A DNA stretch of 64,000 bases from Monoplex corrugatus (lineage: Eukaryota > Mollusca > Gastropoda > Littorinimorpha > Ranellidae), in the NCBI GenBank assembly GCA_030674185.1, contig CM060312.1:62003578-62067577 (forward strand), in the 5' to 3' direction. The notes under the pieces are model-generated. The model saw nothing but the letters and a program-made list of their open reading frames with translations. It was not told where the DNA came from and searched no databases. Shown piece after piece: positions 21,301 to 30,300 of this stretch. Both the position numbers and the translations under genes were made by a program. The first letter of the stretch is position 1. Each line of letters begins with the position of its first letter.

Positions 21301-24300
21301 TGCTGTATTTACCCTATTGTGTATCGTTCAATGAACCATATCACTTGTTATACAAAAAAATAATCTTCATGAGTAAAACAAAAGAAAATAAAAGTTTTTT
21401 CGTAAAAATATTAATTGCCTTTATCTTTTTTTTTAATGATTTGATTTTGAATGTTCAGATACTGAAATGGCTGCAGAGAAAAAAAAGTCATTGGAAATCT
21501 TGGAAAAGGTGCTGGGCCACAAGCCAAGGCAAAAAGCAAAGATTGTGTATGAGTAAGTGTTTAGTTTTGATTAAGTGTGTGTATTGTATTTAACATTTAA
21601 TAGTACATACATAACCATAACTTACAAGTGCATATTTGATATTTTGTCGTATGACTAAATTTGTTTTATTCCCCTGTGGGGATGTCGGGGGCTCTTTCAG
21701 GATAAATGGTATTCTGGAAATTCTGTGCTAGAAATTTCCTCTTTTCTGTCTCTCTCTTTGTTTCTGCCTTGTTCCTTTGCTTTCTGTCATTTTTTTCCTA
21801 TCATTTTCTGCCTTGCTGGTCCATTCACCTGTATGTGTTCGATAAAGTCTTTCGTACTTTTTCTTAGGATTGATAATTGGGTACATGTATTAGGTGTATT
21901 TTTGGCTTTAGGGAGGTGAGATATGCCTGTTTATATATATGTGTTTTGGTGTCCTAAGGTATGCTTAAATTTGTGTTCAGATGTGTTTTTTTAAATCCCT
22001 TGTGCGCTAAATTGGACAGAGTGGTCAACGCCAAGGACATGTCCTTAGATTGTGTGCACGAATGCATTGATATGTGTACTTAATTTTCTTTTTTCCTTTT
22101 TCCTGTTGATGTTTTGTATGTTTTGAAACAGTCATAGCCCTGATATGGCTCTACACAGTTGGCTGGGTTTTAAACAACAATAACAATAAACAAGAACAGA
22201 TTTGTTTCAGTGTCTAAGTAACTGTATTTTAGACATTAAAAATGGGATGATAACAAACTTAAACTGAATGACAAGACAAAAGCCTCATCATTACATCCTA
22301 GCGAACATCTTCTGTTGTTTGCGTAGACAAGTTCTGTACATGTTGGCAAATAGAAACTTAGTTTCTCTTATTTCTGATGATGGTTATGTCACTGAAGTTA
22401 CGTGTGTTCTGATGATATGTCACTCAAGTCAAGCGATTATTTATCATTCAGCATTATCTAGAAGTTCACCACATTGTTACCTGCACATGCTTGACCACTC
22501 ACACAACAAAACAGCTGGTCTGTGCCTTTTGCCTTAAATACAAGCCCAGTTTTGAAGGCTTTGAAATATGCTCGGCCCATTCTTCATGAAGTTCAATGGT
22601 TCACAGTCTAAGAACAAATAGACTACATTCTCCCCATGGGGATCCTGGGGGCTCTTTCAGTATAAATAGTATATCCACCTTCTGGAAATTCTGTGCTTGA
22701 AATGTCCTCTTTTCTGTCACTCTCTTTGTCATTTCATTTCTTCCTATCATTTTCTGTTTGGCTGGTCCATTCACCTGTATGTGTTCAATAAAGTCTTACA
22801 CACTTTCTTTTAGGATTGATAATGGGGTGCATGTGCTAAGTGTGTTTTTGTCTCTAGAGATATGAGATATGCAGAAGTAATTTTAGGTAATTTAGGCCTG
22901 TGTTTATATATGTTTTTGTTTCCTTGGTTTAAATTTGTATTCAGGTATGTTTTTTAAATCCCCATGTAGGATAAATTGGGCGGAATGGTCAACGCCAGGG
23001 ACGTCTTAGATTATGTGCGCAAATGCATTGACATGTGTACTTAACCCTTTGACTCCCGCATCCTATCCACCAAATGCAAAAACTTAGCCCTTTAACTCCC
23101 TCACCCTGTCCACCAACTTCCTGAGGAAGGTTGTGGATGGGATGAGGGTATCAAAGGGTTAAGTTTTTACTTTGCTAGCTTGTTTGGCAATGCAGCATGC
23201 TGGTGACAGGGTGCGGGAGTCAAAGGGTTAATTTTCTTTTCCTGTTTTTCCTGCTGAATTATTGTATATGTTTTGAACTGCTTATAGCTCTGATAAGTCT
23301 GTATGCAGTTGGCTGGGCTTTAAACAACAATAACAATAACAGGTAGACTACAAATTGTCAGTTTTGTGTTACAGCTTCTTTTCTGAAACTGTCCGTATCA
23401 CTTCTGGTCTCCTTACCATTCATTCTTCTTCTAGATATGCCAGTCTTCATCAGATGAATGTATTCTCTGCATTCCTCATATAAAGATCAAGATTTTTCAG
23501 CCAACATTCATTCTGTGTCTGGAATTCATTTCCCTCAGATATTTGTCACCTCTCAGGTTTTTTTCATCTTTTAAGAGAGCTTTAAAAACTCATCTCCTCA
23601 GACAGCATCCCCACCTTTTGAAATTCTTATGCTAGAAATGTCCTCTTTACTGTCATTCTCTTTGTTTCTGTTTGCCTTCTGACCAGCACCGCAGGTGTTT
23701 GTATCTCTCAGGCCTGGTTGACGCCAGGATATATTATGACAGAAAGCGTAGAGTACAGCCCTGTCACGCAGTCTCAGTCCTAGATGAAACTCCAGAGCAT
23801 CATGATTATCATCATCATCATCATTGTTATCATTGCATTGTAAAAACTGTGCCAGCTTCTGTGGCAGTTAAGGTGGAGTAGAAGAGGTGAATGAAAAAAA
23901 AAAGGGTGAGCACAAAGGTAACCTCCCTGAGTGTGATGATCCTAAAACAAAAATTTTTTTTTAAAAAGTCCCTGTCTTGTCACTAACATGTTTGCTTTTG
24001 ATTCTACAGAGACATGAACAAGAGGAGGTACAGCCCCTCCAAAACAATAGTTGAACCAGAGGAACCGTAAGTAAATACATGAAAACTAGTGAAAAGATAA
24101 ATATCCATCTGAGCCAGGCACCTGTTCACCAACTGCAGAATCTTAACCCTTTGACTCCCTCACCCTATTCACCAGCTATGTGCAGGTAGTTAACTTTTTG
24201 ACTCCCGTACCTTGTCCACCTGCGTCCGGCATTTTCAACCTTGCCAGCAAAGCAAAAACTTAACCCTTTGACTCCCTTACCCTATCCACCAGCTTCCTGC

Positions 24301-27300: not shown

Positions 27301-30300
27301 AAGGTGGAGTAGAAGAGGTGAATGAAAAAAAAAAGGGTGAGCACAAAGGTAATCTCCCTGAGTGTGATGATCCTAAAACAAAAAATTTTTAAAAAGTCCC
27401 TGTCTTGTCACTAACATGTTTGCTTTTGATTCTACAGAGACATGAACAAGAGGAGGTACAGCCCCTCCAAAACAACAGTTGAACCAGAGGAACCGTAAGT
27501 AAATTCATGAAAACTAGTGAAAAGATAAATATCCATCTGACCCAGGCACCATGTTCACCAACTGCAGAATCTTAACCCTTTGACTCCCTCACCCTATTCA
27601 CCAGCTATGTGCAGGTAGTTAACCTTTTGACTCCTGTACCTTGTCCAGCTGCGTCCGGCATTTTCAACCTTGCCAGCAAAGCAAAAACTTAACCCTTTGA
27701 CTCCCTTACCCTATCCACCAGCTTCCTGCAGGAAGTTGGTGGATAGGGTGAGGGAGTCAAAGAGTTAAGTTTTTGCAGATGGTGGATAGGGTGTGGAAGC
27801 CAAAGGGTTAAACTAAACCAGAGAACAGAATTGGGAGTGGCTGAAGGAGGTTGGCATCCTGAAACGTGCAAAGAGTAAGTTGTTGAAGAAGCCCAAAGTC
27901 TTGAATTTATTAGTTTTATTTGCTGTGTAGTATTATTCATTCTTCAAAAAACTCAGCGTTTTTGGGCCCCACTTGCACCCATGATTTATGAAAGTTATTC
28001 CGCGATTTGTTAAAATTTCATGATTTGTCCGTTGAAAGGAAGTGCCATGTTTAGAGTAGATTAAAATTCAACTATCAAGAATAAGCTTAACCCTTTGACT
28101 CCCGCAGCCTGTCCACCATCATCCTGCACTGTCAACCATGCTTGTGGAGCAGAAATTTAACCCTTTGACTCCCTCATCCTCTCCACCATAGGGAGCCAAA
28201 GGGTTAAGTTTTTGTAATTGATGGATAGTGTGTGGGAATCAAAGGGTTAACAAGTTTACTCTTTTTTTTATTTTTTTAGAATTTTGTTTCATGAGCAAAC
28301 AAGTGAAGATAGAGTGCTTGTTTGGCAATGCAGAATGCTGGTGGACAGGGTGCGGGAGTCAAAGGGTTAATTTTCTTTTCCTGTTTTTCCTACTGAATTA
28401 TTGTATATGTTTTGAACTGCTTATAGCCCTGATACGTCTGTATGCAGTTGGCTGGGCTTTAAACAACAATAACAATAACAGGTAGACTACAAATTGTCAG
28501 TTTTGTGTTACAGCTTCTTTTCTGAAACTGTCCGTATCACTTCTGGTCTCCTTACCATTCATTCTTCTTCTAGATATGCCAGTCTTCATCAGAGAAATGT
28601 ATTCTCTGCATTCCTCATATATAGACCAAGATTTTTCAGCCAACATTCATTCTGTGTCTGGAATTCATTTCCCTCAGATATTTGTCACCTCTCAGCTTTT
28701 TTTTCGTCTTTTAAGAGAGCTGTAAAAATTCATCTCCTCAGACAGCATCCCCACCTTTTGGAAATTCTTATGCTAGAAATGTCCTCTTTTCTGTCATTCT
28801 CTTTGTTTCTGTTTGTCTTCTGACCAGCACCGCAGGTGTTTGTATCTCTCAGGCCTGGTTGACGCCAGGATGTACATGTATTATGACAGAAAGGGTAGAG
28901 TACAGCCCTGTCATGCAGTCTCAGTTCTAGATGGAACTCCAGAGCATCATGATTATCATCATCATCATCATTGTTATCATTGCATTGCAAAAACTGTGCC
29001 AGCTTCTGTGGCCATTAAGGTGGAGTAGAAGAGGTGAATGAAAAAAAAAAGGATGAGCACAAAGTTAACCTCCCTGAGTGTGATGATCCTAAAACAAAAA
29101 ATTTTAAAAAAATCCCTGTCTTGTCACTAACATGTTTGCTTTTGATTCTACAGAGACATGAACAAGAGGAGGTACAGCCCCTCCAAAACAACAGTTGAAC
29201 CAGAGGAACCGTAAGTAAATTCATGAAAACTAGTGAAAAGATAAATATCCATCTGACCCAGGCACCATGTTCACCAACTGCAGAATCTTAACCCTTTGAC
29301 TCCCTCACCCTATCCACCATCTATGTGCAGGTAGTTAACCTTTTGACTCCCGTACCTTGTCCACCTGCGTCCGGCATTTTCAACCTTGCCAGCAAAGCAA
29401 AAACTTAACCCTTTGACTCCCTTACCCTATCCACCAGCTTCCTGCAGGAAGCTGGTGGATAGGGTGAGGGAGTCAAAGGGTAAAGTTTTTGCAGTTGGTG
29501 GATAGGGTGTGGAAGCCAAAGGGTTAAACTAAACCAGAGAACAGAATTGGGAGTGGCTGAAGGAGGTTGGCATCCTGAAACGCGCAAAGAGTAAGTTGTT
29601 GAAGAAGCCCAAAGTCTTGAATTTATTAGTTTTATTTGCTGTGTAGTATTATTCATTCTTCAAAAAACTCAGTGTTTTTGGGCCCCACTTGCACCCATGA
29701 TTTATGAAAGTTATTCCGCGATTTGTTAAAATTTCATGATTTGTCCGTTGAAAGGAAGTGCCATGTTTAGAGTAGATTAAAATTCAACTATCAAGAATAA
29801 GCTTAACCCTTTGACTCCCGCAGCCTGTCCACCATCATCCTGCACTGTCAACCATGCTTGCGGAGCAGAAATTTACCCTTTGACTCCCACATCCTCTCCA
29901 TCATAGGGAGCCAAAGGTTAAGTTTTTGCAATTGATGGATAGGGTGTGGGAATCAAAGGGTTAATAAATTTTCTCTTTTTTTAGAATTTGGTTTCATGAG
30001 CAAACAAGTGAAGATAAAGTTGAAGGTGCACAATTTCATACATGTCAGCCGCTGTTTGAGTCACACCATAGTAACATGTTTTTCATGTCTTACTATCAGA
30101 CCAGAAACCCTGATGAAGAGAGAAATGCAGGGTTTCTGGTTGTGTTTGTTTGTTATTTGTTTTTTGTGTGTTTTTTTTTGTTTATTTTGTTGTTTTTTGT
30201 TTGTTTTGTTTTGGGTTTTGTTGTTGTTGTTTTTTCCTTCATTTTTTTTTACACAGTTTACTGATGCTGTTTATATTGTTTACTGATGTTCTGTATATAT

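Follow-up and report, generated by a model that had tools for sequence, protein, structure and literature searches.

Tandem exon duplication is common. In the KIV-2 array of the LPA gene, a kringle domain is encoded by two short exons in units of 5.6 kb, of which an allele is reported to have between 1 and about 40, and the number of units has a known effect on lipoprotein(a) (PMC11462820). Mutually exclusive exons of the Dscam1 type are described as tandem copies of one exon, all of the same phase and within one gene (PMC9013439). Most tandem exon events in human are reported to be ancient, with peptides which are homologous and not identical (PMC9741552), and for human segmental duplications internal tandem repeats have been described which modify genes (PMC2812944). 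Here we report on a locus of the gastropod Monoplex corrugatus at which one 57-nt exon of a gene that, judged by homology, is NOL8 occurs four times in an array of 1.7-kb units. The locus is part of a stretch of 64,000 nt (assembly GCA_030674185.1, contig CM060312.1, positions 62,003,578 to 62,067,577, forward strand), to which all coordinates refer and which is called the window in the following; it is eukaryotic, has 39.4% GC and contains no N. On balance, we favour a real and recent amplification within an intact NOL8 gene, with most or all four copies present in most of its mRNAs.

Four units of about 1.71 kb each stand in tandem from 23183 to 30020, and a preliminary description of this DNA had placed these bounds correctly to a few bases. 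The units, all on the + strand, extend from 23183 to 24885, from 24886 to 26596, from 26597 to 28311 and from 28312 to 30020. Their six pairwise identities lie between 97.3 and 99.8%, far above chance; just three substitutions separate units 2 and 3, and the most diverged parts are the 5'-end of unit 1 and the 3'-end of unit 4. The exon copies are spaced 1713, 1715 and 1716 nt apart and the entire 1.7-kb unit is repeated, which consists mainly of intron (about 0.83 kb before and 0.82 kb after the exon) with pieces of repeats that are also present elsewhere in the window. The array is missing from the list of Tandem Repeats Finder, in which the longest period is 500.

As in the coding variable number tandem repeat of KIV-2, near-identical kilobase units of exon and intron stand in tandem within one gene, each with a whole exon, and the protein would grow in frame. 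The NOL8 array differs by its 1.7-kb units, by the single 57-nt exon for a short motif and by its number of four units, seen in one assembly. It also resembles the repeats of human segmental duplications, in that the copy number of an intragenic tandem repeat alters the gene structure, but judged by its headings that study treats minisatellite expansion in human paralogues and not a motif exon of NOL8 (PMC2812944). What is known, then, are kilobase coding repeats with whole exons; what is new is the multiplication of a conserved single-copy motif, and this in NOL8. The preliminary description knew of no such case, and likewise no report of an exon duplication or of such a tandem repeat in NOL8 was found among the papers listed from the open-licence literature. 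A parallel to the multi-domain metallothioneins of gastropods was rejected; the genes of Alinda are described as intronless (PMC7084494).

The four exon copies are located at 24010 to 24066, 25723 to 25779, 27438 to 27494 and 29154 to 29210 (all + strand), each with intact acceptor, frame and donor, as had been claimed. All are preceded by TTTTGATTCTACAG (ending CTACAG) and followed by GTAAGT, and the splice sites agree letter for letter (21 acceptor positions up to the exon, 9 donor positions). What is repeated is hence an exon of one gene together with usable splice sites, that is, a tandem exon duplication. Every copy comprises 1 base, 18 codons and 2 bases and is symmetric. The NOL8 exon before the array (21459 to 21552, + strand), recognized by its frame and its homology to residues 781 to 813 of the Babylonia protein, ends with GA, two bases of a codon; the exon after the array (30600 to 30706, + strand; with 16 residues aligned to Babylonia at 75% identity) supplies the codon's last base. 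The frame remains open in all 16 subsets of the copies (0 of 16 with a stop), and 0 to 4 motifs could be encoded; the earlier statement that this 19-codon exon could be included in frame in any number thus holds. The encoded peptide has 19 residues and closes in (I/T)VEPEEP. Copy 1 has Ile (ATA) where copies 2, 3 and 4 have Thr (ACA), the one difference between the four peptides, which had been read in the same way before.

Tandem copies of equal length and equal phase are described as the raw material of mutually exclusive exons (PMC9013439), so that the array might be a cluster from which one copy is chosen. Such a cluster would however be expected to hold differing peptides, and here they are the same save for the one Ile/Thr exchange. 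Moreover, neither the spacing (introns of 1656 to 1659 nt between the copies), nor the type of the splice sites (all GT-AG), nor the frame of the symmetric exon forces any exclusion. In contrast to the Dscam1 type, the NOL8 copies are recent, encode almost the same peptide and stand without a visible exclusion mechanism, RNA pairing having been surveyed for local hairpins and inverted repeats and not for competing docking/selector pairs. We regard a mutually exclusive cluster as very improbable, and a regulated choice of a single copy finds no support.

The gene around the array can be followed through 15 exons from 287 to 40289 (with one 57-nt copy used), which form a single open frame with fitting phases and GT-AG at all borders. 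A C-terminal exon lies near 43217; the 5' part of the gene is outside the window, which begins within the RRM, a domain that the relatives carry as RRM_1 (PF00076). Collinear with the rebuilt protein are a Babylonia areolata entry named "uncharacterized protein" (58% identity), a Littorina saxatilis entry named "nucleolar protein 8-like" (41%) and an RNA-binding protein of the beetle Diorhabda (29%), and homology exists also to Batillaria and to vertebrate NOL8. A profile search returned 202 proteins, and among the 120 matches listed many are vertebrate nucleolar protein 8. Because of these collinear homologues and of the profile matches named nucleolar protein 8, the gene is, by homology, NOL8, the name already given to it in the preliminary description. 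RRM, long charged region and C-terminal conserved motifs are arranged collinearly with those of known NOL8. Pfam gave, at the threshold used, RRM models only. When 21553 to 33224 was searched for a missed exon that could encode the basic and acidic linker of the relatives, there were beyond the known exons weak matches only (best E 0.11), and Rfam had no match in 21000 to 33500.

The exon had been assigned to the conserved C-terminal part of NOL8. This can be stated more sharply, as the exon itself encodes, at the start of its peptide, the NOL8 motif DMNxxRYDP. Equivalents are found at the same place in Babylonia (DMSKRRYNP), Batillaria (DMNKLRYIP), Biomphalaria (DMNTVRFDP) and platypus (DMNSMRYDP). 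A motif profile, built from 43 of 121 homologues (a sample that is mostly vertebrate) and used with a cut-off of 5 bits, matches once in 116 of the 121 and nowhere convincingly twice; the extra match in P0093 reaches 5.2 bits and falls in unrelated sequence. No match was obtained in P0003 (Littorina, diverged here), P0006 (Nucella), P0054 and P0059. The fragment of the window with all four copies yields four matches. Where both landmarks are present (111 proteins), the motif begins 78 to 93 residues past that of the PQFEG type. In a search of solved structures with P0008 and alignment A2 as queries, the best 60 of 95 and the best 60 of 67 matches, respectively, were to RRM proteins; the best stretch lay inside the first 119 positions, and none of these matches covered the motif.

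NOP132 is a synonym of human NOL8. The C-terminal part of yeast Nop8p is reported to bind Nip7p, and in the same paper the similarity to the NOP132 C-terminal region is put at just 16% (PMC3126838). Because this similarity is too low, we did not carry Nip7p over as a partner of the snail motif.

Growth of repeats is seen in the same protein of related animals as well. In Babylonia NOL8, a tandem repeat with a period of 13 residues occupies 903 to 1021, between the RRYNP and NLKNLF motifs, and P0006 of Nucella lapillus (811 aa, an entry lacking the NOL8 C-terminal part) has tandem peptide repeats with periods of 12, 14 and 16, among others, elsewhere in the protein. These repeats differ from the array in position and sequence, and none of them repeats DMNxxRYDP. 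Since the stretch after the motif is highly variable in length between snails, added length in NOL8 may be harmless. Additional motifs would be a different matter than extra length, because other animals keep one.

The history of the units can be read from their alignment (1725 columns, 57 of the ungapped ones variable). Unit 1 is singled out by 25 of the variable columns, unit 4 by 19 and unit 2 by two; ten columns separate units 1 and 4 from units 2 and 3, and one groups units 1 and 2 against 3 and 4. In columns 1 to 470, unit 1 is 2.4–2.6% away from the others, and units 2 to 4 differ mutually by 0–0.22%. In columns 1367 to 1725 it is unit 4 that stands apart (2.9%), and units 1 to 3 differ by 0–0.28%. 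Between them, in columns 471 to 1366, there are three lineages 2.1–2.9% apart, with 0.22% between units 2 and 3. The separation of the unit-1 and unit-4 singletons along the unit was equalled in 0 of 100000 permutations; the ten columns with 1=4 against 2=3 all fall within 471 to 1366, and so narrow a span came up in 1586 of 100000 random draws. An old difference, as large as that between the middles, is preserved at the two outer ends, and the sequence across the three junctions is homogeneous. This mosaic fits unequal exchange and implies that unequal exchange or conversion took place in the past.

The same pattern bears on the alternative that the array is a misassembly, in which two haplotypes or a repeat were interwoven and the unit count of the true allele is lower or higher. 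Units 2 and 3 are separated by so few substitutions, several differences consist of one base gained or lost in a homopolymer run, similar to residual read errors, and near-identical junction segments with differing middles could stem from a tangled assembly graph. But a doubling of two haplotypes would give two units and not four, and the differences are structured, with a distinct left end of unit 1 and a distinct right end of unit 4. Also, a window with many long dinucleotide runs and not one N suggests long reads, which would span the 6.8-kb array. The preliminary description had allowed for an assembly artefact; with the structured mosaic and the 64 kb free of N, this keeps some probability, less than was allowed there, and we consider it improbable.

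If, as we favour, the array is real, the symmetric exon would have been duplicated first together with its flanking intron sequence, and the array would then have expanded and become partly homogenised through unequal exchange or gene conversion. A recent doubling would have given rise to units 2 and 3, whose private changes need one further step. Copy number probably varies between individuals.

A dispersed repeat which forms hairpins is present in every unit and at the left edge of the array, and it may have promoted the exchange. In unit 1 it lies downstream of exon copy 1 (24252 to 24347) and consists of two 48-nt arms, 94% complementary, which fold with -84.7 kcal/mol against -26.7 for shuffled sequences. 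The corresponding elements, like this one without an assigned strand, are at 25966 to 26061 in unit 2 (found by inverted-repeat listing and folding), at 27681 to 27776 in unit 3 (by sequence, the position being in register with the hairpins of the other units) and at 29397 to 29492 in unit 4 (-87.1 against -27.9 kcal/mol for shuffles). For the three of four copies that were folded, the energies range from -82 to -87 kcal/mol, those of shuffles from -25 to -28. A relative lies across the left edge of the array (23041 to 23231, no strand assigned) and matches part of unit 4 with 83% identity over 193 nt. The repeat family around TTAACCCTTTGACTCCC was observed at 23041–23231, 31566–31684, 40473–40679, 45055–45311 and 58800–58975 and in every unit of the array, often as head-to-head pairs that fold as long hairpins.

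How many copies would enter the mRNA is the step on which our reading most depends, and our expectation is drawn from the genomic sequence. Most mRNAs would include most or all of the copies, because the spliceosome would see no difference between them and they are separated by GT-AG introns of about 1.66 kb. The acceptor, with a score of 12.95 (2.0–14.5 in the 14 other exons of the gene), beats 13 of these 14, as judged by a small splice-site matrix in which the sites of the other exons were scored with themselves left out. NOL8 would then bear four 19-residue DMNxxRYxP segments directly before the stretch of variable length.

Several observations weigh against this reading. The donor (ACC|GTAAGT) scores 5.26 and beats only 3 of the 14 other donors of the gene. 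The strong hairpins, and the long inverted repeats of up to 96 nt with 94% complementarity that span single exon copies, could disturb a joint inclusion. A single simple exchange of unit 1 with unit 4 does not account for the ten substitutions that units 2 and 3 alone share; these need a third lineage or gene conversion. Finally, 1 of the 57 exon columns is variable, with about 2 expected (56 of 1626 elsewhere), a comparison which has no power and offers no sign that the copies are maintained by selection.

The first two of these observations lead to another outcome for a real array, namely leaky splicing. The mRNAs would form a ladder of 0 to 4 copies, aided by pairing of intronic inverted repeats across single copies, or most of them would have one copy, the others being ignored. 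A short exon with a donor weaker than 11 of 14 others would be prone to this, and every subset of copies is in frame. In addition, two of the four macaque entries compared (P0054 and P0059) are without exactly the 26 residues that bear the motif, with one hybrid codon remaining; they also have a 36-residue insertion elsewhere. This gap reads as the skipping of one symmetric exon, although these are database entries and not experiments. Exon skipping has been reported for human NOL8, in accounts from which it could not be told whether the motif exon is meant (PMC13056253; PMC8226009). Against leaky splicing stand the identical sites of all copies and an acceptor which is second best beside those of the 14 other exons, and the hairpins fold best on themselves, which would leave fewer arms for pairing over long range. 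Leaky splicing of a real array appears possible but doubtful to us.

The amplification can be explained without any functional effect. It is conceivable, but in our opinion unlikely, that NOL8 with four DMNxxRYxP motifs has become multivalent, with a number of motifs that varies between individuals and tunes binding in the early assembly of the large ribosomal subunit. If the copies are used, a conserved motif that is otherwise single in this core protein of ribosome assembly was turned into a short repeat in the course of a few percent of divergence, and the locus would be a natural experiment on the binding target of this motif and on the copy number that is tolerated. A neutral array would still be a clean example outside the vertebrates for the growth of a coding-exon repeat by unequal exchange, the steps of which are legible in its units.

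Other elements were noted in the introns of NOL8. A predicted tRNA-Ile (anticodon GAT) is located at 38863 to 38937 on the - strand, antisense to the gene. An open frame of 306 aa (34759 to 35679, - strand) matches the C-terminal half of RVT_1 (E 4e-07) and appears as a LINE-like remnant. A 62-bp tandem repeat with about 12 copies lies at 35915 to 36660. Near the end of the window, a 27-bp satellite with about 39 copies and 92% matches extends from 62938 to 63989 and stops 11 bases short of the edge.

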